DNA of 58,845 bases, from positions 1 through 58,845 of the forward strand of contig NZ_FUWU01000016.1 of the NCBI RefSeq assembly GCF_900167415.1, written 5' to 3'. The translations under genes and the position numbers were made by a program. Below are positions 4,952-53,985 of the stretch, piece by piece. The notes under the pieces are model-generated. The model worked only from the letters and a program-made list of their open reading frames with translations. It was not told the DNA's origin and did no database searches. Source of the stretch: Fibrobacter intestinalis (GTDB taxonomy: Bacteria; Fibrobacterota; Fibrobacteria; Fibrobacterales; Fibrobacteraceae). Each line of letters begins with the position of its first letter. The first letter of the stretch is position 1.

Positions 4952-5024
4952 GTACGATTTTCAAATCGGCGTGCTGGGGGGGGGCGGACTTTTAGGACGA
5001 AACCATTTTCGCTTCTCCAAGCCT

Positions 5025-8103: not shown

Positions 8104-8599
8104 ATGACCGAATCGAATGATGGAGAAACTTTGAAATAAAAGCAGAAGTGATAAAAATCCAACTCGATTATTTGCAGGGTCCCATTTGGATTTCTGATGT
8201 TCAAACAGGAAAACCAATGACAGGGATTGATGTCATTGATAATGATTCTATACTTGTCCCATGGAATCTTGAGTGCAGCGACCTTTTTTCTTCTTGCTAT
8301 GAGTTTAACACTCATAATATGGCGTGCTGGTTTGATAAGGAATTGGAAAAAAAGAATAGTGCAAGGATGCTTTCTTTGATTGAACAAATTAAAAATCGAC
8401 TTAATGAAATTAACGATGGCAGTTTTGTTGTAGAAAATTTGGAAACGGAACGGCTAAAAAATCTTTGATTTGCACTTCCGATGCGGGGAATAAATGGGAT
8501 GCAGAAGCGACAGGGAAATGGAAAATGAATAATTCAAAATACGCTGCATGGATGAATGTCCTGAATCGAGCCTATGATGAAATGAAAGGGGCTTTTTAG
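8104..8599 (+). pseudogene. Small hypothetical gene broken by one or two single-base frameshifts
   Basis: The longest intact frame (from a GTG at 8148 to 8468) encodes IKIQLDYLQGPIWISDVQTG ... ERLKNL. Its frame is open upstream to 8121, reading FEIKAEVIK without a start. An ATG at 8104 with a GAGG site starts MTESNDGE in another frame; one more A in the AAA at 8126-8128 would join the two. Past 8468 a second frame reads SLICTSDAGNKWDAEATGKW ... NRAYDEMKGAF and ends at 8599; one more A in the A6 run at 8456-8461 would join it too, though ERLKNL could be a natural end. Family unknown. The small acidic form resembles cytoplasmic immunity-type proteins, but that is a guess. Confidence 0.5.
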
Positions 8600-9040
8600 A
8601 ACCGATTGCTTTGACAAGCTCAGCACCTGGCCGGCGGAGCCAGCAAACGATCCGCCTAGAGATTTTCGGCGTTTTTACATTTACCCATGAGTCTTGGAAA
8701 CTTGTTTTCCCTAGACGAATTGTCCCTATGGGCCCCAAAGTCCCGCTGGAAATTTTTCAGCGTTTTTACAACCGTCCGCGTCATACCGAATTTATTTCGG
8801 CATCTCATTTGCAGGGAAATAGTGAATAGTGGGTAGTGAATAGCGAAAAACTCGGAACTGCGTTTTCGGCTTTTTTTACCACTAAACACTAACCACTAGG
8901 TTTTAACTCCCGCACACAGGCTCTGATACAAGTTCAGGGTGGCGCACTTGCTGTTCAGGGGGGGGCATATTTGTGTGGATAGTGGGTAGTGCATCGTGCT
9001 GTCGTGAAATCGAAAGCGGGGCTGTGCGGGTGCGCCCTCG
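8600..9040 (+). repeat. Intergenic repeat region with one covarying hairpin and heptad tracts
   Basis: No gene is supported in 8600-9140. It holds a TTTGACAAGCTCAGCACC fragment (8611), the hairpin CCCATGA-GTCT-T-GGAAA...TTTCC-C-T-AGAC-GAATTGT (8684-8723), and 7-bp repeats of the AATAGTG/GGTAGTG type at 8818-8850, with their complement CACTAAA/CACTAAC at 8880-8898 and again at ~8980-9005. Confidence 0.6.
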
Positions 9041-9140: not shown

Positions 9141-9812
9141 TTGTTACGAAAACCATCTTTTTTTTTAGTCTTCTTTTTGCTTTTATTGTTGGCTTGCTCT
9201 GACAAAGGCACGGAACCTGAAGTCTTTGATGCTGCAAAAGTCTGCCCCGAAAGTGGTCGCGGAACGTTTGTGGATGAACGCGATGGTCAGGTGTATAAAT
9301 ACACCACCATTGGCAATCAAGTGTGGATGGCGCAGAATATGAACTTTTACATCGATGGAGTTGAAGTTGTTGAACCATCTACAGGTAAGACGGAAAAAGC
9401 ATCAAGCAGTTGTGATTCTGAAGAGGACAATTGTGCAGAAAATGGGTGGAGCTACAACTGGTATGCAGCCAATTATGCCTGCCCTACAGGTTGGCATTTG
9501 CCAAGTCAGGAAGAGTGGGAAACTCTGATAAAAAAGATGGGCGGCGATTGTGCACGTTTGCGTTCTACCACAGGAGGATGGAAGGAATTAAACCGTGGTG
9601 AAGGTGTAAGCGCAACAGATGATTGCGGGTTTGATTTGAAGCCTTCCAGTGGAAGGTATGATGGAGGATTTTCTGCGAATATGTGGGCACAAAACGTAGA
9701 TCAAGAAAATGTTATTTATGTACAAATTAAATCTTATGCGCAAGAAATAGAATTCAGTAGATATCGTAGAGATTTAAGATTTGCGTCCATTCGCTGCTTA
9801 AAAAATAAATAG
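9141..9812 (+). CDS. FISUMP-domain lipoprotein
   Basis: 223 aa from a TTG start; no clear ribosome site. Signal peptide with lipobox LLLAC (~Cys19), then the FISUMP domain: GTFVDERDGQVYKYTTIGNQ-VWMAQNMN (about 42-70), WSYNWYAANYACPTGWHLPS and EEWETLIKKMGG (about 105-135), and the C-terminal RFASIRCLKNK. The family is very abundant in Fibrobacter; its members are thought to be exported surface proteins of unknown function. First of four genes in line (9141, 9826, 10124, 10819) with short gaps, suggesting co-transcription. Confidence 0.85.
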   Translation: MLRKPSFFLVFFLLLLLACSDKGTEPEVFDAAKVCPESGRGTFVDERDGQVYKYTTIGNQVWMAQNMNFYIDGVEVVEPSTGKTEKASSSCDSEEDNCAENGWSYNWYAANYACPTGWHLPSQEEWETLIKKMGGDCARLRSTTGGWKELNRGEGVSATDDCGFDLKPSSGRYDGGFSANMWAQNVDQENVIYVQIKSYAQEIEFSRYRRDLRFASIRCLKNK

Positions 9813-9825
9813 AGGATTGGTTTCT

Positions 9826-10113
9826 TTGAAGTGTTTCGTACGTAGACTTGTTTTTCTTCTTTTATCACTCGTCGTTTTCCCTTGTGCAGCTCCGGTTATG
9901 GAGCCAGGTCTTACGACGCTGTATTTGCTTCTCGATGCATCCAATAACTCATCTAGCCAAGGGTGTTGGAATGAGGAATTGCGAAACTATATCGAAACAA
10001 AAATTGTCGGTCAAAAAGGGTATGTGTATTGCGCCACCTACGATATGTCTGCTTCTAGTCCTGCAGATTTTGCAAAGGAACTTTCCGCAGGTCAGGGGAA
10101 AATCTTCAAATAA
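9826..10113 (+). CDS. Short exported protein, probably the 5' remnant of a longer gene
   Basis: About 95 aa from a TTG at 9826, 9 nt after AGAGGA; an alternative TTG at 9817 leaves no spacing. The signal peptide is KCFVRRLVFLLLSLVVFPCAAP. The rest (LYLLLDASNNSSSQGCWNEE ... KGYVYCATYDMSASSPADFA) looks like the start of a globular domain and then stops abruptly (SAGQGKIFK) 10 nt before the next gene. A protein fold of this kind is unlikely to be complete in ~75 residues, so truncation is suspected. Function not recognised. Confidence 0.45.
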   Translation: MKCFVRRLVFLLLSLVVFPCAAPVMEPGLTTLYLLLDASNNSSSQGCWNEELRNYIETKIVGQKGYVYCATYDMSASSPADFAKELSAGQGKIFK

Positions 10114-10123
10114 GGAGTCGTTT

Positions 10124-10816
10124 ATGAAAAGAATCTTTTTAACCCTTGCCCTTGCTTTTTTTGCAGGTTGCGCCACGGATGCCGGAGACGATTTTGATGC
10201 GGACAAGGTATGCCCAGCCGAAGGGACGAACGTCTATGGCATGCCCAACCGCGGAACCTTTGTGGATGAACGGGATGGCCAAGAATATAAATACACCACC
10301 ATTGGCAATCAAGTGTGGATGGCGGAAAATTTGAATTACAAAACGGAGTATAGCGTTTGCTATGATAATGATGAGGCTAATTGCGAAATCTATGGAATGT
10401 TGTATTCGTTAGGAGCGAAGGATTTCCCCCTTGATTATGATAAAGTGGACTCGGTATGCCCAACAGGATGGCATTTGCCGAAATTTGAAGAATTTGATAA
10501 AATGATTAATCTTGCTGGTGGATGGGATAATGAAAAAGAAATTATCTCACTATTGAGGTCTGACTCTTTATGGATGATGGGATTGCGGAGTTCAGATGAA
10601 TGTGGATTTTCTGTTAGACCTGGTGGGCAATTTTATGGTAAAGCTGAGGAGGAATCTTATAGCAAACATCGATTTGCTGAAATAAATCTATATTCATTTT
10701 TTTGGACGCAAACATTAACGAATCCTTTGGTTGTAAAATCTGTATCGTTTTCTTATGATAGAGTCGCAATACAACCACACTCCTTTGGTATGTCCATCCG
10801 CTGCATAAAGGATTAA
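10124..10816 (+). CDS. FISUMP-domain lipoprotein
   Basis: 230 aa. ATG preceded by AAGGAG. Lipobox FAGC (Cys16). The FISUMP signature is clear: RGTFVDERDGQEYKYTTIGN, WMAENLNY, CPTGWHLPKFEEFDKMI, SSDECGFSVRPGG, FFWTQT and the end MSIRCIKD. It shares nearly identical residues with the 9141 protein around GTFVDERDGQ...TIGNQVWMA, so the two are recent paralogues. The stop is 2 nt before the LolA-like gene, so they are probably one transcript. Confidence 0.87.
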   Translation: MKRIFLTLALAFFAGCATDAGDDFDADKVCPAEGTNVYGMPNRGTFVDERDGQEYKYTTIGNQVWMAENLNYKTEYSVCYDNDEANCEIYGMLYSLGAKDFPLDYDKVDSVCPTGWHLPKFEEFDKMINLAGGWDNEKEIISLLRSDSLWMMGLRSSDECGFSVRPGGQFYGKAEEESYSKHRFAEINLYSFFWTQTLTNPLVVKSVSFSYDRVAIQPHSFGMSIRCIKD

Positions 10817-14262: not shown

Positions 14263-14289
14263 TTGACAATCTGTTTTTTTTTTTATGTT
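14263..14289 (+). promoter_or_regulatory. Possible promoter of the 14376-19374 operon
   Basis: TTGACA (14263-14268) followed after 15 bp by TATGTT (14284-14289). The -35 matches consensus, but the spacer is short. It begins just outside the argC fragment. Confidence 0.4.
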
Positions 14290-19383: not shown

Positions 19384-20127
19384 ATGCATATTAAACGATA
19401 CCTCTTCACAGCCTTCGCCCTTTTCACCCTCGTCGGGCTCGCTTCTGCGGAGCAGGTCTGTACGGAGAGCGAGTACAAGGGCCGCACCATCAAGAAGTGC
19501 CGGGACACGGGCGCTCCCGGAGGCGGTTCCTCCACGGATTCCTTTACGGACCCCCGCGACGGTCAGACCTACAAGACCGTCCAAATAGGGAACCAGACCT
19601 GGATGGCGGAGAACTTGAACTACGAAACGGACGACAGTTACTGCTACGACGACGAGCCCGCCAACTGCCATAAATACGGTCGGCTCTATACTTGGGCCGC
19701 GGCCATGCAAGCTTGTCCGGACGGCTGGCACCTGCCTAGCGATAATGAATTGAAAACGCTTTTCGAGACCGTGGGCGGAGAGTATCGCGAGGAAGAGACA
19801 ATCGGCTTTTTAAACACGAACGTGACGCTCCGCTATTACACCGATGCCGGCAAGAAACTCAAGTCCACTAGAGGCTGGGACGATAGCGAAGGGAAAAGCG
19901 GCAACGGCACGGACGAATATGGCTTTTCCGTGTTGCCAGCGGGTGCCCGCGGTTCAATGGGCGACTATGGGGTTGCCGGTGAGACCGCACTCTTCTGGGG
20001 TCTTTCGGTACTCTACGACCACATTGCGTACCGCTGGGGCTTCAGCAACGAGCACGAGGACGTGTACCTAGATGGCGGTCCCAAAATCGCTGGGTATTCC
20101 GTGCGTTGCCTCAGGGACTCGGACTAG
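19384..20127 (+). CDS. Secreted FISUMP-domain protein
   Basis: 247 aa. ATG 6 nt after AGGAGA and 9 nt after the ankyrin gene stop, so it may be the fourth gene of that operon. Signal peptide MHIKRYLFTAFALFTLVGLA. FISUMP motifs in order: DPRDGQTYKTVQIGNQTWMA (about 59-78), ENLNYETDDSYCYDDEPANC, YGRLYTWAAAMQACPDGWHL (about 99-118), GTDEYGFSVLPAGARG, and the end YSVRCLRDSD. GC content and codon use are richer (GCC, GAC, CTC) than in the ankyrin gene, suggesting a different origin. Nearly identical to the broken copy that follows. Confidence 0.88.
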   Translation: MHIKRYLFTAFALFTLVGLASAEQVCTESEYKGRTIKKCRDTGAPGGGSSTDSFTDPRDGQTYKTVQIGNQTWMAENLNYETDDSYCYDDEPANCHKYGRLYTWAAAMQACPDGWHLPSDNELKTLFETVGGEYREEETIGFLNTNVTLRYYTDAGKKLKSTRGWDDSEGKSGNGTDEYGFSVLPAGARGSMGDYGVAGETALFWGLSVLYDHIAYRWGFSNEHEDVYLDGGPKIAGYSVRCLRDSD

Positions 20128-20177
20128 CGGGGTAGGGACCCCGCTCCTAGCTGCGGCCTAGCCGTAGGCAAGGCCGC
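20127..20177. other. Two GC-rich hairpins after the FISUMP gene
   Basis: GCGGGGT-AGGG-ACCCCGC (20127-20144) and GCGGCC...GGCCGC (20153-20177). No T tract follows, so they are not standard terminators. The TAGCCGTAGGCAAGG inside the second recurs at 58034-58048. Confidence 0.5.
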
Positions 20178-20260
20178 CACCCCCCGGCTCATCGTGGCAG
20201 TCGCAAAGAACGCAAACTCCCAAATGATGCAGAAATTTCAAACCAAGGAAGAAATCAAAA

Positions 20261-20838
20261 ATGAAAAACCGCATACTACTATTCATCGCTCTCGCCGCCG
20301 CTTTCGCCTTCGCCGGAAGTGGCTCAAAAGGCACGTTCACCGACCCCGCGACGGTCAGACCTACAAGACCGTCCAAATAGGGAACCAGACCTGGATGGCG
20401 GAGAACTTGAACTACGAAACGGCGAATAGCTATTGCTACGAAGATAAACCAGCCAACTGCCATAAATACGGTCGGCTCTATACTTGGGCCGCGGCCATGC
20501 AAGCTTGTCCGGACGGCTGGCACCTGCCCAGCGATGCGGAATGGGAAACGCTGATCACGGCTGTCGGCGGAGAGGATGTCGCCGGATTGAAGCTCAAGTC
20601 CACCAGTGGCTGGTACAATGATGGCAACGGCACGGACGAATACGGCTTTTCCGTGTTGCCAGCGGGCTACCGCAATGGCGATGGCGATTACCTCAACGCC
20701 GGCAAGGACGCGACCTTCTGGAGTTCTACGGAGTACCGCAGCTACATTGCGTACTCCTGGAACTTCTGCTCCGACGACGAGACCGTGTCCTCGGGTTTTC
20801 TGTTCGTTGCCTCCGGGACTCCCGTTTGTGAGGTCTAA
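20261..20838 (+). pseudogene. FISUMP gene with two single-base frameshifts
   Basis: ATG at 20261 (AAGGAAG upstream) starts a signal peptide MKNRILLFIALAAAFAFAGS, then GTFTDP. There the C5 run found in the 19384 gene (GACCCCCGCGAC) is C4 (near 20342-20345), so the frame leaves the domain. The domain continues in the next frame (KTVQIGNQTWMAENLNYETA ... GTDEYGFSVLPAGYRNG). Near 20800 a T5 run appears as T4 (GGTTTTCTGTT), so the usual end SVRCLRD is read out of frame and stops at 20838 instead of 20831. Paralogue of the gene just upstream; tandem duplication is likely. Real decay, phase variation or sequencing error are all possible. Confidence 0.8.
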
Positions 20839-20970
20839 AGCAGCCTTTGGCAGCTCCTCGCCCGCAAGGCGAGGACTTCAAAAATCTCGCATGGTTTCGC
20901 AAAAGTCTTTTTGAACGCTCCGATTTTTTGTCTAGCGCCTTTTCCTATTCGGGCGTTTACTGTTGGAGAA

Positions 20971-22298: not shown

Positions 22299-23882
22299 AT
22301 GGCTTTGAAAAGATTCCCCATCGGCGTGCAGGATTTCGCAAGGATTCGCGAAGACGGCAAGTATTACGTAGACAAGACCGACTTGATTTACAAGCTTGCC
22401 CATTCGGAGGATTATTACTTCTTGTCCCGTCCTCGCCGGTTCGGCAAGTCGCTCCTGGTGAGCACCTTGCAATGCTACTTCGAAGGCCGCCGGGAACTGT
22501 TCGCGGGCCTAGCCATGGAAAAGCTCGAAACCGAGTGGAAAAAACATCCGGTATTCAAGCTGAGTTTCGCGGGGAACAAGTTCGTCAAAGAACAAGATTT
22601 GGCGGACACGCTCAACCTCAAGCTTGGGGAATGGGAACGAATGTATGGCCTCGCTCCGTCCAAGGCTTCCGCGTGGGGGACGCGCTTCGAAGTCCTCCTC
22701 AAGGCGGCCTACGAATCCGCCGGCGTGCAGCCGGTGGTCCTGGTGGACGAATACGACGCCCCGCTCCTGGATTCCATGGAAAACCCGGAGCTCCAGCAAA
22801 CCCTCAAGGAAGAAATGCGGAAGCTCTTCAGCCCCCTCAAGGACCTGGGCGGCATCCTCCGCTTCGTCTTCCTTACCGGCATCAGCAAGTTCAGCCAGCT
22901 GTCGATTTTCAGCGAGCTGAACAATCTGAAAGTCATCACCATGAACGACGAATACGCGGGCATCTGCGGCATCACCAAGGAGGAGGTGTTCACGCAGATG
23001 CAGCCGGAAATCCAGGCTCTCGCGGGCAAGAACGGCATGAGCTACGACGAGGCCTGCGAAGCCCTGAAGCAGAAGTACGACGGCTACCACTTCAGCAAGA
23101 ATTCTCCGGACGTGTTCAACCCCTTCAGCCTCATCAATTCCCTTAGCGACGGGGAACTCGCCAACTACTGGTTCGCGACGGGGACGCCCACGGTCCTGAC
23201 AAAGCTCATGAGCCGCTACAAGGTGGACCCGCAGCCCTTCGACGGCGGATTCGACGCCACGCTGGACATGTTCGACGCTCCCACCGAGACGGCGACGAAC
23301 CCCATCCCCATGCTTTACCAGAGCGGCTACCTGACCATCAAGGGCTTTGACGGTTTTTCCTATACGCTGGGCTTTCCCAACGACGAGGTTCGCCTCGGGT
23401 TCCTGAAGGCGCTGATGCCCTACTACGCCAAGGACGACGTGGTGGACAACGACTCCTTTATATTGTGCTTCACGAAATCTTTCCGGCAGAACCGGCTGGA
23501 AGACGCCATGGCGCAAATCCGCGCGTTCCTTAGTTCCATCCCCTACAACGCGGAACGCCAGGACGAGAACCACTACAAGACGGTGCTGTTCCTGATATTC
23601 AAGCTCTGCACCCCTTACGTTGTACGTGCCGAGGAATGCAGCGCGGCGGGCCGTGCGGACGCCGTGGTGGAGACCGCCGACAGCGTTTACGTGTTCGAGT
23701 TCAAATTAGACGGCAGCGGGACCGCGGAGGACGCCCTCGCCCAGATCGACTCCAGGGGCTACCTGATTCCCTATACCGCGACGCCGGGCACCGACGGCAA
23801 CCCGAAAAAGCTCTACAAGATCGGGGCCAGCTTCGACAGCGAAAAGCGCACCATCGGCGAGTGGCTTGTGCGGGAGGGGTAG
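22299..23882 (+). CDS. AAA-ATPase-like / PD-(D/E)XK nuclease protein (DUF1703 type)
   Basis: 527 aa. N-terminal AAA-ATPase-like domain: FPIGVQDFARIREDGKYYVD, P-loop-like SRPRRFGKSLL (43-53), Walker B VVLVDEYDAPL (146-156) and LTGISKFSQLSIFSELNNL sensor region. The C-terminal DUF1703 nuclease-like domain has RADAVVE followed by VYVFEFKLDGSGTAEDALAQ, the D...ExK pattern of PD-(D/E)XK enzymes. The family is expanded in Bacteroidetes and Fibrobacter; its role is not settled (mobile-element-linked or defence-linked proposals). GC-rich codon use contrasts with the flanking genes, which supports recent acquisition. Confidence 0.85.
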   Translation: MALKRFPIGVQDFARIREDGKYYVDKTDLIYKLAHSEDYYFLSRPRRFGKSLLVSTLQCYFEGRRELFAGLAMEKLETEWKKHPVFKLSFAGNKFVKEQDLADTLNLKLGEWERMYGLAPSKASAWGTRFEVLLKAAYESAGVQPVVLVDEYDAPLLDSMENPELQQTLKEEMRKLFSPLKDLGGILRFVFLTGISKFSQLSIFSELNNLKVITMNDEYAGICGITKEEVFTQMQPEIQALAGKNGMSYDEACEALKQKYDGYHFSKNSPDVFNPFSLINSLSDGELANYWFATGTPTVLTKLMSRYKVDPQPFDGGFDATLDMFDAPTETATNPIPMLYQSGYLTIKGFDGFSYTLGFPNDEVRLGFLKALMPYYAKDDVVDNDSFILCFTKSFRQNRLEDAMAQIRAFLSSIPYNAERQDENHYKTVLFLIFKLCTPYVVRAEECSAAGRADAVVETADSVYVFEFKLDGSGTAEDALAQIDSRGYLIPYTATPGTDGNPKKLYKIGASFDSEKRTIGEWLVREG

Positions 23883-23943
23883 CCGGCAAATAGCTAGGCT
23901 GGAGTTGGAAGGTCTTTGGCCTTTCCGAAGCAGACTTTAGATT

Positions 23944-24725
23944 TTACAAACAGGAGTCCCGGAGACAACGAATCGGCATCGCCCTGTCCTTATAGCTGTT
24001 GTTCAAGCTTATCTTGTCGAAATGGTTGAAATTCATGCTATACATAGATTTTGCCGTTGGAAAGGGCTATCCAAATGTAAGTGCTGCCGGCATTAAAAAT
24101 CTGCTGTTATTACTGCGATAACCTGTAGGGAGTGCGGAAAATCCATAGCTGTCCATACCATTCCGATGTTCCGACCGGAAATCGCCTTACCGGCAATAGT
24201 TGTACCGCCAACGGTAGCTAGCAACGTATTGAACTCGCTTTTGCTAGGCAAATCCAGCCTTCCGGGCAAACGCCGCGGACCATTTCGCTGGGGCTGCAAG
24301 AAATGCCATTCCCGCACTCTTTCCCTCCATTGCTGAAAATCCCGGCACTGTCTATGGCCGCGTTTCACAGGTAGAGAGGGTCGTACTTGGCGCAGGTATC
24401 TGCTTTTCCCTGTCATCCGATGAGAAACTTGCCGATACGGAGCTGCTGGAAATTTCTTTGCGGGAACAGGAAGATTTCTCCTATAAGTCCTCGATGTCGG
24501 ACGGTTTTTCCCATTGTTGCAAAGGTAATGGCTGTTTTACGAAAGCACCAGAGCCGCGTCCCCATCGCGATTGTCCGTGCAATTTGGCAGGTCGTCCACA
24601 TTTTCCAGATGGAACGCATGGTTGCTTTTGGTGCTTTTCCCGGGGGAGAGGAAGAGTCATCCCCACAGGCGATAAAAGAGAATATCGTCGCAATGCCAGT
24701 GGCAAAAATGAAGTTTTGAAAAGGT
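23944..24725 (-). pseudogene. Decayed FISUMP lipoprotein gene
   Basis: On the minus strand, fragments occur in order but in different frames: a lipoprotein start (FIFATGIATIFSFIACGDDS, lipobox FIAC; no clear ATG), NVDDLPNCTDNRDGDA (~24590), LPSKSEFNTLLATVGGTTIA (~24250-24200), GYRSNNSRF (~24110) and the terminus PIRCLRDSCL with stop at 23944-23946. These are FISUMP-gene landmarks. The CGDDSS + NVDDLPNC start matches the broken gene at 51 kb (CGDDSS ... TVDDLGKC). Several frameshifts are needed to join the parts, so this is a true relic. Confidence 0.8.
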
Positions 24726-24847
24726 TCCTTTTTCCTGGGTAGATGTTTTCCCTTGAACTTTTCGGAAATTCAGGAAATCGTCCCCCCTTTGAATTTTTCG
24801 CGCTCCCGGATTCAAAGCGGTAAAACGCCGCACTCCTGAAAAAGGGC

Positions 24848-51060: not shown

Positions 51061-53985
51061 ATGCTCGTTCAAAAATGCTTCGCCTGCTGTCCGCGATTCT
51101 GGCTGCAGCCGCTTTTGCCCTGCTTTCCCTTGCGTTTTCCGCCTGCGGCGACGATTCGTCCTCCGGCTCTGGAAACGGCGAAAAGGAGGAGGGCACTGTC
51201 GAAACCGTGGACGACCTGGGCAAGTGCCTTTCCGCCTTCGAAGGCGACACCTATTTCGTCAAGGAGAAGGATGGCTCCTACGTGTGCGAGTCCAGCCGCT
51301 GGGTTCCCGTCCCGGGAGTGGGCGAGTGTATGGACTCGTTGGCGGCGGGCACGGTCCGCAAGGAGATCCACAAGGCGCTGGCCAATTACGGCGAGTCGCT
51401 GGTCTGCGCGGACAGTGCGTGGCGACCGGCCACCGACGTGGAAGTCGCACTGAAGAACGCCTGCGTGGAAAGTCTGGACGGCAAGTTCCGGAACGACTCC
51501 ACGGACAAGAAGAAGGTCAAGCATTACGTTTGCGCCGGTAACCTCTGGCGTGAGGCGACGGATGTGGAATGGGCGGCCAGGGCCCTCTGCACCAAGGACA
51601 ACGAGGGTTTCTTCGCCACGGACTCCAGCGACAAGAAGGACGTGAAGGTCTATGTGTGCAAGGACTCCCTCTGGCTGGAGGCTTCCGCCATTGAGTAGGC
51701 TGCGGGGAAGGTCTGCAACAAGAACGCCTACGGGCTTTTCGTGGCGGACTCGGCGGACAAGAAGCTCCCCCTCTACGTGTGCAACGGCGAGATGTTCCTG
51801 TCGGCCACCGAAGCGGAACAGGCGACGCGTCTGATCTGCGACTCCACCTCCCGTGGGGACACGTTGAACTTCTGGGCCTGCGACGGCAGCGAATGGCAGA
51901 AGAACACCACTTCGACGCTAGGCGAGTGCACCGACAAGAATGAAGGCGACATCGAAGTCGAAAAGAACCCCTTCCGCATTTTCGGGCTTCATGCCACGGC
52001 GGGCGACTCCAGCTACGTGTGCGACGGCAGCCAGAAGAATTGGCGGACGGCCACCCCGGGCGAGGCGGCGACGGGCAAGCTCTGCACGGAGAAGGTGGAC
52101 GGCGACACTCTGAACTGGTTCGTGTGCGACGCGGCAAGCAACGACTGGGTGGCGGTCCTGACCAGCGGCCTCGGCAAATGCGACGCGGACTCCCTGGACT
52201 CCATCCGGACGGAACCCAACCCCAACCTGAAAAAGAAGGACAGCCTTTTCGTGTGCGTAAGCGACGGTGGCAGCTACGGCTGGAAGATTTTGGAAAAATC
52301 CCTGCTGGGTGAATGCGACTCCAAATTGCAGGACAGCGTGCGTGTGGAGACCACCCCGAACCTGAAGACCTTTGAAATTGAATTTGTATGTGATGCGTCC
52401 AAGTGGGAGAAGGCTTCCGGATACGAATTTGCCGACGGCATCCCCTGCACGGGCAACCTGAATGCGAAAGTGGTGGGGGATAAGCTCTGCCAGGACGGCA
52501 AGTGGCGAGACGCCACGGATTCCGAAATTGAAATGGGCGCCGCCTGTAATGCAGAGACCGAAAACGTGGTAGTGAGCGACAAGGGCAAGGTTTGCAAGTC
52601 GGGCCAGTGGGTGACGGCCAGCACCGGAGAAATTGCCACAGGCAAGGTGTGCTTGGAAGCTCTTTCCAAGGAACTGGACTATGAAATGATGAACGGCTAT
52701 GTCTGCGAAAAGTCGGGGAAGAGTTATGCCTGGCGAGAGGCCACCGAAGCGGATGCCCTTAACGGCAAGCTCTGCAACGCCACCAGCTGGAGCAAGTTCT
52801 TTGGCAGTGGCGACAGCGTTTCCTACGCTTATGTGTGCGAGCGCTCTGGCACAGACGGCACCTACACCTATGCCTGGCGCAATGCAAGTGCCTCGGAAGC
52901 GGGCAGCGGCAGAACTTGCACGGCCAACAATTATGACAAGTTCTTTAGCAAGGTGGATAGCGTGTTCTACAACGAGGTTTGCGAACAGTCGGGAACGAGC
53001 GGAGCCTATACTTATGCCTGCGTGAAGTCTATGGAACCAATGAGAAAAAATACGGCCCTTGCAGCGAGTCCACATATGAAATTTACGGAGAGGGAAGTGA
53101 AATCGTAGATAATCACGTTTGCACCGATTCTTATAGGTGGCGAGAGCTGACGGATGGGGAAAAGGCTACCCATATGGTTTGTAATTCAAAAACTCTAGAA
53201 ATGACGAAGACCCAAATACCCAATGATACGCTGTATTATTACAAGGGATATTATAAAAATGGCTATGTGTGCAAAACACCATCAAGCGATGGTTGGAGTG
53301 AAGCGAGTGACGCAGAAAAGGCCTGGCAGTCCCCCTGCAATTACGACCATCGCGACACTGTCGTATCGGGAAAAGCTTGTGTTTTTAGTGATAAAATAGG
53401 GAATCAGTTGTATTATGGTTTGAGGGATGCTTCAGATCTGGAAGATTCGGTGGGCAGAGCTTGTGACCTTATCAGGTACAAAAAATCTAGCTATAATAAT
53501 TATTATGAGTGGTTTAAACCTCAAAATGAAGGAATGCTCCTATACGGGGCGTTCCGGTAAAACTTATGCTTGCATTTCAAATAATAGGGTTAACAAGTGG
53601 AGAGAACGGGTATGTCCACAACTGGTCGGGAGCGTCTGCAGCTTGTAAAGATGGCTTCAAGGTGCCAAGCAAGGAGGACTTTCAGGAATTGTCCAGTTAT
53701 GTAGTATCGGTGAAAAAATACCTTGACGTTGCTGCCCTTAAATCCGAAAATTGGGGTGGTACAGACCAATTCGGCTGGAAAGCTCTCCCGACTGGACGAT
53801 ATGTATCTAAAGCCGATGCTTCCATTCGAAATACAGATTATGCATTTTGGTGGACTTCCACGCCGACTAGCACTTCTGGCTTCATGAATGTGGTGCGTAT
53901 GGGGTCGGGAATTGATTATTTGACAAGCATTGACACTGCACAATATGTCGGAGTCCGCTGCCTAATGAAAAAATGGGGCGAATAG
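51061..53985 (+). pseudogene. Large Cys-repeat/FISUMP lipoprotein gene, broken by a stop codon and several frameshifts
   Basis: AGGAGG precedes an ATG at 51061; adding one A to the A5 run at 51071-51075 would put it in frame with the signal peptide MLRLLSAILAAAAFALLSLA and lipobox FSAC, GDDSSS. About a dozen Cys modules of 45-60 residues follow (C...YVC...W-xEAT-xxE...C). An in-frame TAG at 51696-51698 replaces an expected Trp or Gln codon, and the frame continues to 53108. Near 53020 a lost base shifts it to a frame ending at 53560, near 53535 another shift gives CSYTGRSGKTYACISNNR, and a third leads to the FISUMP end ACKDGFKVPSKEDF ... YVGVRCLMKKWGE at 53985. Confidence 0.8.

Follow-up and report, generated by a model that had tools for sequence, protein, structure and literature searches.

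How did the gene at positions 20194-20838 (forward strand) come to be spread over three reading frames, and what lies behind the other apparent frameshifts around it? The gene is located in a stretch of 58,845 nucleotides from Fibrobacter intestinalis, here called the window, which is contig C41 of a draft genome of 3.29 Mb in 116 contigs (99.95% complete). An earlier note on this DNA had described a cluster of frameshifts in accessory genes, mostly as bases lost from homopolymer runs, and had named relaxed selection, slippage-driven phase variation of surface proteins and base-calling errors as possible causes. With a probability of about 0.77 for the explanation as a whole, we regard 20194-20838 as a disabled FISUMP surface-protein gene that probably is, or once was, a remote target of a diversity-generating retroelement (DGR), and the FISUMP genes at 23.9-24.8 kb and 51-54 kb as ordinary decaying paralogues; decay inside a redundant, hypervariable family fits best.

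Frame breaks and mosaic structure of 20194-20838

FISUMP, whose name derives from Fibrobacter succinogenes, is a large paralogous family. A census of FISUMP (Fib_succ_major) in this genome gave 48 matches, some of them weak or partial and one of them being the DGR template (TR) described below; no role for FISUMP was stated in the portions of the literature that were searched. The gene 20194-20838 is a member of this family, as its profile matches lie above the curated cut-offs (PF09603: E = 6.7e-31, 108.4 bits against a cut-off of 33.9, profile positions 1-166 of 187; TIGR02145: E = 3.8e-59, 200.3 bits against 41.65). Three-frame translation placed the signal peptide (ATG at 20262), the FISUMP domain and the C-terminal VRCLRD tail in three different frames, showing that two breaks in this gene are real. 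The 5' part with the start codon and signal peptide (20262-20343, forward strand) is followed in another frame by the FISUMP domain, which occupies a single open frame and has lost its C-terminus (20344-20797, forward strand).

At the first break, a base had been proposed to be missing from a C run near 20343. There is indeed one base fewer, C4 at 20344-20347 versus C5 in the gene at 19384-20127, but the site falls inside the interval in which one paralogue type gives way to another. At the second break, where a single base was thought to have been lost from a T4 near 20800, the gene instead lacks 22 bp of the DGR template. The junction of this deletion lies inside the variable repeat (VR) within 20772-20797 (forward strand; TR comparison), its exact place being ambiguous. 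Neither break of 20194-20838 carries the long tract of a homopolymer contingency locus, the first having C4 and the second the 22-bp deletion.

The switch of paralogue type was traced by comparing the gene with its relatives. Its 5' end is nearest to C92b, the second DGR target on contig C92 (96, 86 and 73% in 30-nt bins from 20254). Further downstream, 81 columns at 20342-20422 (forward strand) match the neighbouring gene 19384-20127, interrupted solely near the 5' edge, where the C run is one base short, and a second tract of 77 bp at 20452-20528 (forward strand) is identical to that neighbour. Permutation of the tracts against the neighbour gave 0 of 10000 over the gene and 1 of 10000 within the domain. 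Since the two DGR targets C92a and C92b reached 28 and 14 of 10000, respectively, under the same procedure, the test is not specific and conserved blocks contribute to it. The intact FISUMP gene 19384-20127 (forward strand; PF09603, 4.4e-30), an older DGR target, is the likely partner of the shared tracts, and gene conversion between the two genes would have made the mosaic. On sequence grounds the one-base loss at 20344-20347 may have arisen either at the conversion junction or as a later slip from C5 to C4, and both fit equally.

A DGR on another contig and its variable repeats

A genome search at E<=0.001 gave one reverse transcriptase (RT) match, at C92:17574-18272. The RT open reading frame (L128:6365-7537, where L128 denotes the C92 locus) is preceded by two FISUMP genes and an accessory open reading frame. 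Its closest solved relative was 8ub7 (4.4e-32; runner-up 1.8e-9), which by sequence identity is Brt of BPP-1, and direct comparison with BPP-1 Brt gave 29% identity (2e-35). By this homology the C92 enzyme is a DGR-type reverse transcriptase. The group II, retron and DRT models of NCBIfam also matched it, all under their cut-offs, and 17 relatives were found among viral contigs at 28-39% identity. An adenine-rich TR of 199 bp (L128:6156-6354) lies between the accessory open reading frame and the RT. The accessory protein (262 aa, L128:5263-6051) had no match in Pfam, NCBIfam, PHROGs or PDB and gave no alignment with BPP-1 Avd (hhalign probability 0.1), and the profile of its family had two weak PDB matches (E 0.2 and 0.27). 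Among 14 aligned family members, comprising our own and those of 13 of 16 relatives (L220, L224 and L225 omitted), PF22296 (bAvd) matched 6, our own not being one of them. The same contig carries a tyrosine recombinase gene (L128:9-965; Phage_integrase, 3.6e-23), possibly marking a mobile element.

Searching the genome with the TR gave 13 matches, which include the TR itself and a C108 copy in two pieces and thus correspond to 11 VR candidates. Mismatches were concentrated at TR adenines in 10 of these 11, on six contigs (p from 1e-8 to 4e-18), whereas no adenine bias was found at the C108 candidate (p=0.09). Two of the biased VRs are in the window, both on the forward strand: that of 20194-20838 at 20643-20820 (mismatches at 22 of 48 adenines versus 6 of 129 other positions, p=5.5e-10), and the older one of 19384-20127 at 19921-20120 (38 of 59 versus 30 of 140, p=1e-8). 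For 20643-20820, the share of mismatches falling on adenines was 0.79 when the TR served as reference and 0.23-0.42 when any one of ten other copies did, showing that the bias is specific to the TR as reference. Summed over the ten biased VRs, TR adenines were changed to G, T and C in 141, 93 and 60 cases, respectively. The VR differed from the TR in length by 0, 3 or 6 bp in 8 of the 10; the exceptions were the C116 copy (+2 bp) and the one at 20643-20820 (−22 bp). Of the ten, the C116 copy differs least at positions other than adenines (1 of 140), and its 2-bp insertion is its sole visible lesion. These comparisons argue that 20194-20838 is a remote DGR target whose RT, TR and accessory gene are on another contig, a context that is not visible from the window alone. 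The genome search with the TR gave no match to the two other intact FISUMP genes of the window, 9141-9812 and 9848-10816 (forward strand; PF09603, 1.3e-21 and 7.5e-23).

Regarding the other copies, one gene on contig C64 (L129, C64:56149-57066) has two FISUMP domains with an adenine-biased VR in each. At L130 (C116:4300-6219) two adjoining target-type genes are both broken at the VR, and the first of them has apparently lost it.

The domain encoded by 19384-20127 was modelled with a pLDDT of 88 (15 sequences). In VIA-align the model was closest to PvdO (Z 9.8), the C-terminal domain of Legionella Lcl (9.0) and Bd2740 (8.5), followed by C-type lectins, and Foldseek with the same model gave no match at E<=0.001. 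By its position, the VR is the C-terminal end of a domain that these modest Z scores predict to be C-type-lectin-like. Folding also predicted GC-rich hairpins with 8-bp stems downstream of both window VRs, at 20855-20875 (34 bp past the VR) and at 20126-20145 (5 bp past the older VR), both on the forward strand, with z of −1.8 and −2.8 against mononucleotide shuffles. Over the 9 of 11 candidates folded in this way (all but C64_56134 and C108), GC-rich hairpins also followed both C92 VRs, C116 and C64_54534, were weaker at C64_56851 and C29, and were absent from the folds after the C53 VR and after the TR (z 0.3). According to the available text of PMC3240598, hairpins matter for BPP-1 homing, and in related phage DGRs they follow the VR at a distance of 4-34 bp; those described here may also be terminators.

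RT relatives were present in 29 of 111 genomes of the family, some of them merely fragments or weak matches. We examined 16 RT loci from 12 genomes, taken from the higher-scoring RT places and not at random. A TR-VR pair with adenine-biased mismatches was found near the RT at 15 of the 16 (19 pairs, one of them, at L227, weak at 66.7% identity), and none was found at L229. A relative of the accessory protein was present at all 16, its match at L224 being in two pieces, and at 3 of the 16 a stop codon lies inside the RT match. By eye, the 17 distinct C-terminal VR tails end with an SVRC- or SVRL-type FISUMP motif; the first VR of L220 lies further upstream in the same frame, and L230 is truncated by the contig end. 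The TRs of other species retain adenines when compared with our own TR, according to mismatch counts taken without p values (adenines versus other positions: 8/59 versus 51/140 for L216, 5/57 versus 37/132 for L217, 6/49 versus 30/96 for L220 and, more weakly, 12/51 versus 32/107 for L219). VRs on other contigs were detected in all three relatives searched (38/73 adenines versus 4/128 other positions at G052:C76, 24/65 versus 11/135 at G033:C75, 34/73 versus 4/131 at G060:C2). The difference in length between VR and TR was divisible by three in all 19 pairs near an RT and in 27 of 27 rows of the scoring of remote VRs; of these rows, six score a TR again and two duplicate a VR. One complete relative genome, G005, carries a tandem FISUMP array (L134, G005:C1:1008000-1020000). 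Its copies showed weak adenine bias against our TR (p=6.7e-5 and 5.6e-4 for full-length, 0.0021 and 0.32 for partial copies), and no RT was found in it at E<=0.001; the array perhaps consists of fossil targets left after cassette loss, or reflects selection at those sites.

Two features of this system are already known as far as the accessible parts of the sources go, namely FISUMP as a DGR target (nine proteins from human microbiomes in Table 2 of PMC4159848, repeated in PMC8934634) and DGRs serving several targets, including lipoproteins (PMC4891356). The Treponema denticola DGR in the available portion of PMC4891356 resembles ours in that a single TR and a single RT serve several targets, of which many are predicted lipoproteins; each isolate has two to seven targets, a few of them described as truncated or 'suspicious', and a lectin fold is cited. 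What differs here is the Fibrobacter host, the FISUMP-type targets, the ten adenine-biased VRs on six contigs and the base-level lesions. In PMC4159848, as excerpted, the material is human microbiome assemblies and Fibrobacter appears only within the domain name, whereas here the genome is that of a Fibrobacter and the targets are remote from the RT. The BPP-1 DGR (AY029185; PMC3240598, in part) shares with ours the RT homology, the adenine bias between TR and VR, the hairpin after the VR and an accessory gene between target and TR; on the other hand, ours is chromosomal with remote targets, its 262-aa accessory protein cannot be aligned to Avd and its RT is 29% identical. The approach of the large contig-based survey by Roux et al. 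would miss remote targets, according to the text available from PMC8144416. No description of DGRs in Fibrobacter or of DGR frame switching occurs in the sections of the literature searched, and survey supplements may contain such loci.

Other reported sites and the homopolymer background

The six homopolymer sites singled out in the earlier note proved to be of mixed nature. Three correspond to real breaks, two of them single-base events and one the 22-bp deletion; the one at 8456 does not, and those at 8126 and 51071 lack support. The A6 at 8456 is no lesion: the open reading frame 8148-8468 (forward strand) shares its end position with two homologues, C107 in the same genome (126-aa open frame) and G063 (112 aa). 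Nothing supports the claim of a lost base at the AAA at 8126. Each homologue has a Met two codons before the position that corresponds to GTG 8148, and similarity stops above that Met, though the C107 frame is open upstream. Nor is there support for a lost base in the A5 at 51071: the intact paralogue C110 also has five A, and ATG 51075, which is in frame, starts a full lipoprotein signal.

That ATG opens a broken gene for a long FISUMP lipoprotein with a repeat region and a C-terminal domain (51075-53985, forward strand), recognized by profile match and by comparison with C110, which has an open frame of 980 aa and 79% nucleotide identity over 1527 columns. An in-frame TAG at 51696-51698, opposite a CAG in C110, had been overlooked. 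The one-base loss near 53020, in a GG dinucleotide, was borne out when the repeats of the YAWR motif were inspected by eye, without an alignment. As for the shifts placed at ~53535 and ~53585, a shift lies at ~53525 and the start of the domain is missing at ~53600; more than single bases must be missing, since the domain match starts only at profile position 51. The region 23944-24725, described as shattered, is so: three-frame translation, read by eye, revealed a FISUMP lipoprotein relic with multiple stops and frame changes across three frames (23900-24800, reverse strand).

The profile that we made for frame checks covers three domains only, and it missed the relic at 23.9-24.8 kb. In a spot check of housekeeping frames, matches over nearly the whole profile were obtained for five domains of TGT, MetH, Dus and ArgC, and partial ones for GidB (2-159 of 184), the B12-binding domain (1-97 of 121), the ArgC NAD domain (52-116 of 121) and PFK (1-228 of 277). 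Elsewhere in the genome, the FISUMP gene on C35 was judged complete by eye and that at C78:15539 has a possible further frame change. Scanning the window for RNAs (Rfam gathering threshold and ARAGORN) gave two tRNAs only. The gene at 22299-23882 encodes an AAA-ATPase-like/PDDEXK_9 protein that looks widely exchanged. Its relatives share 41-80% identity with it, and of 77 related loci the best six are in Fibrobacter MAGs, while the rest include Treponema, Bacteroides and others.

Proximity to homopolymers is to be expected of any break in this DNA, because 81.5% of window positions lie within 9 bp of a run of at least 3 (43.3% for runs of at least 4). Nor are long homopolymers in excess, as the window has 14 runs of at least 8 against a first-order Markov mean of 22.4 (60 simulations). 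These background run statistics led us to reject homopolymer slippage as the chief cause, except that it may account for the single base at 20344-20347. A T9 at 9158-9166, in the intact FISUMP gene 9141-9812 (signal-peptide region), is a better candidate for phase variation than every site listed earlier. Other long runs (G9 at 4976-4984, G8 at 8958-8965, T11 at 14274-14284) are outside the main open reading frames.

Alternative explanations and meaning

According to the reading that we prefer, the RT makes random errors at adenines while copying TR RNA, target genes have their 3' end replaced by the cDNA, and homing would vary the face of the C-type-lectin-like domain outside the cell. The 22-bp deletion could have arisen between GGGTT repeats, of which one is created only by changes at template adenines; this model was fitted to the one junction only. 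With many redundant copies at hand, selection would not purge such breaks.

Relaxed selection, as the earlier note had suggested, fits members of a multicopy surface-protein family. Ordinary pseudogenisation, in which unrelated small indels and point mutations strike redundant paralogues and DGR membership is incidental, would explain the 51-54 kb gene, with its nonsense change and missing domain start, and the relic at 23.9-24.8 kb, both being broken without a detected DGR VR. In 20194-20838, however, one break lies within the VR and the other within the mosaic switch interval, and we consider this account possible at clearly less than even odds. A role for the DGR as a reversible switch, where a frame-breaking indel made in a VR as an error of homing would silence the target until homing restores a VR of template length, is a bold reading suggested by the C116 copy, nearly free of non-adenine differences yet carrying a 2-bp insertion as its only visible lesion. 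Homing restored an 18-nt gap in a reporter in the available part of PMC12875486 (which also mentions slippage by multiples of three in AAC repeats), a result from which VR frame breaks can be read as reversible. Such switching is nevertheless unlikely, because the break of 20194-20838 outside the VR is beyond reset by homing and every scored VR-TR length difference in relatives is divisible by three. Were it true, C116 would be a silenced gene, and gene conversion between neighbouring targets would shuffle the rest.

Turning to the two homopolymer-based accounts, sequencing or assembly error at short homopolymers could underlie the single-base events at 20344-20347 and ~53020, given a draft of 116 contigs, but it leaves the 22-bp deletion, the CAG-to-TAG difference and the missing domain start unexplained. 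The absence of a shift at 8456 and the count of runs of at least 8 below the Markov mean also tell against it, though the latter is relevant to long runs only, and altogether error of this kind seems quite improbable. Slippage-driven phase variation of surface lipoproteins can point to the same two single-base events, in particular C4 at 20344-20347 against C5 in the 19384 gene, to the lipoprotein type of the genes and to the T9 in the intact gene 9141-9812. Its case is weak, however, for the tracts named are of 2-6 bp, long tracts are not in excess and the second break of 20194-20838 is the 22-bp deletion, and we think it very improbable as an explanation of the breaks.

An apparent cluster of frameshifts in accessory genes can conceal deletions and mosaics instead of homopolymer artefacts. 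Some FISUMP members of this genome have the appearance of surface proteins hypermutated from one template, and the occurrence of RT relatives in 29 of 111 genomes, with adenine-biased pairs at 15 of 16 loci, suggests that targeted protein diversification, remote targets included, is common in this gut-bacterial family.
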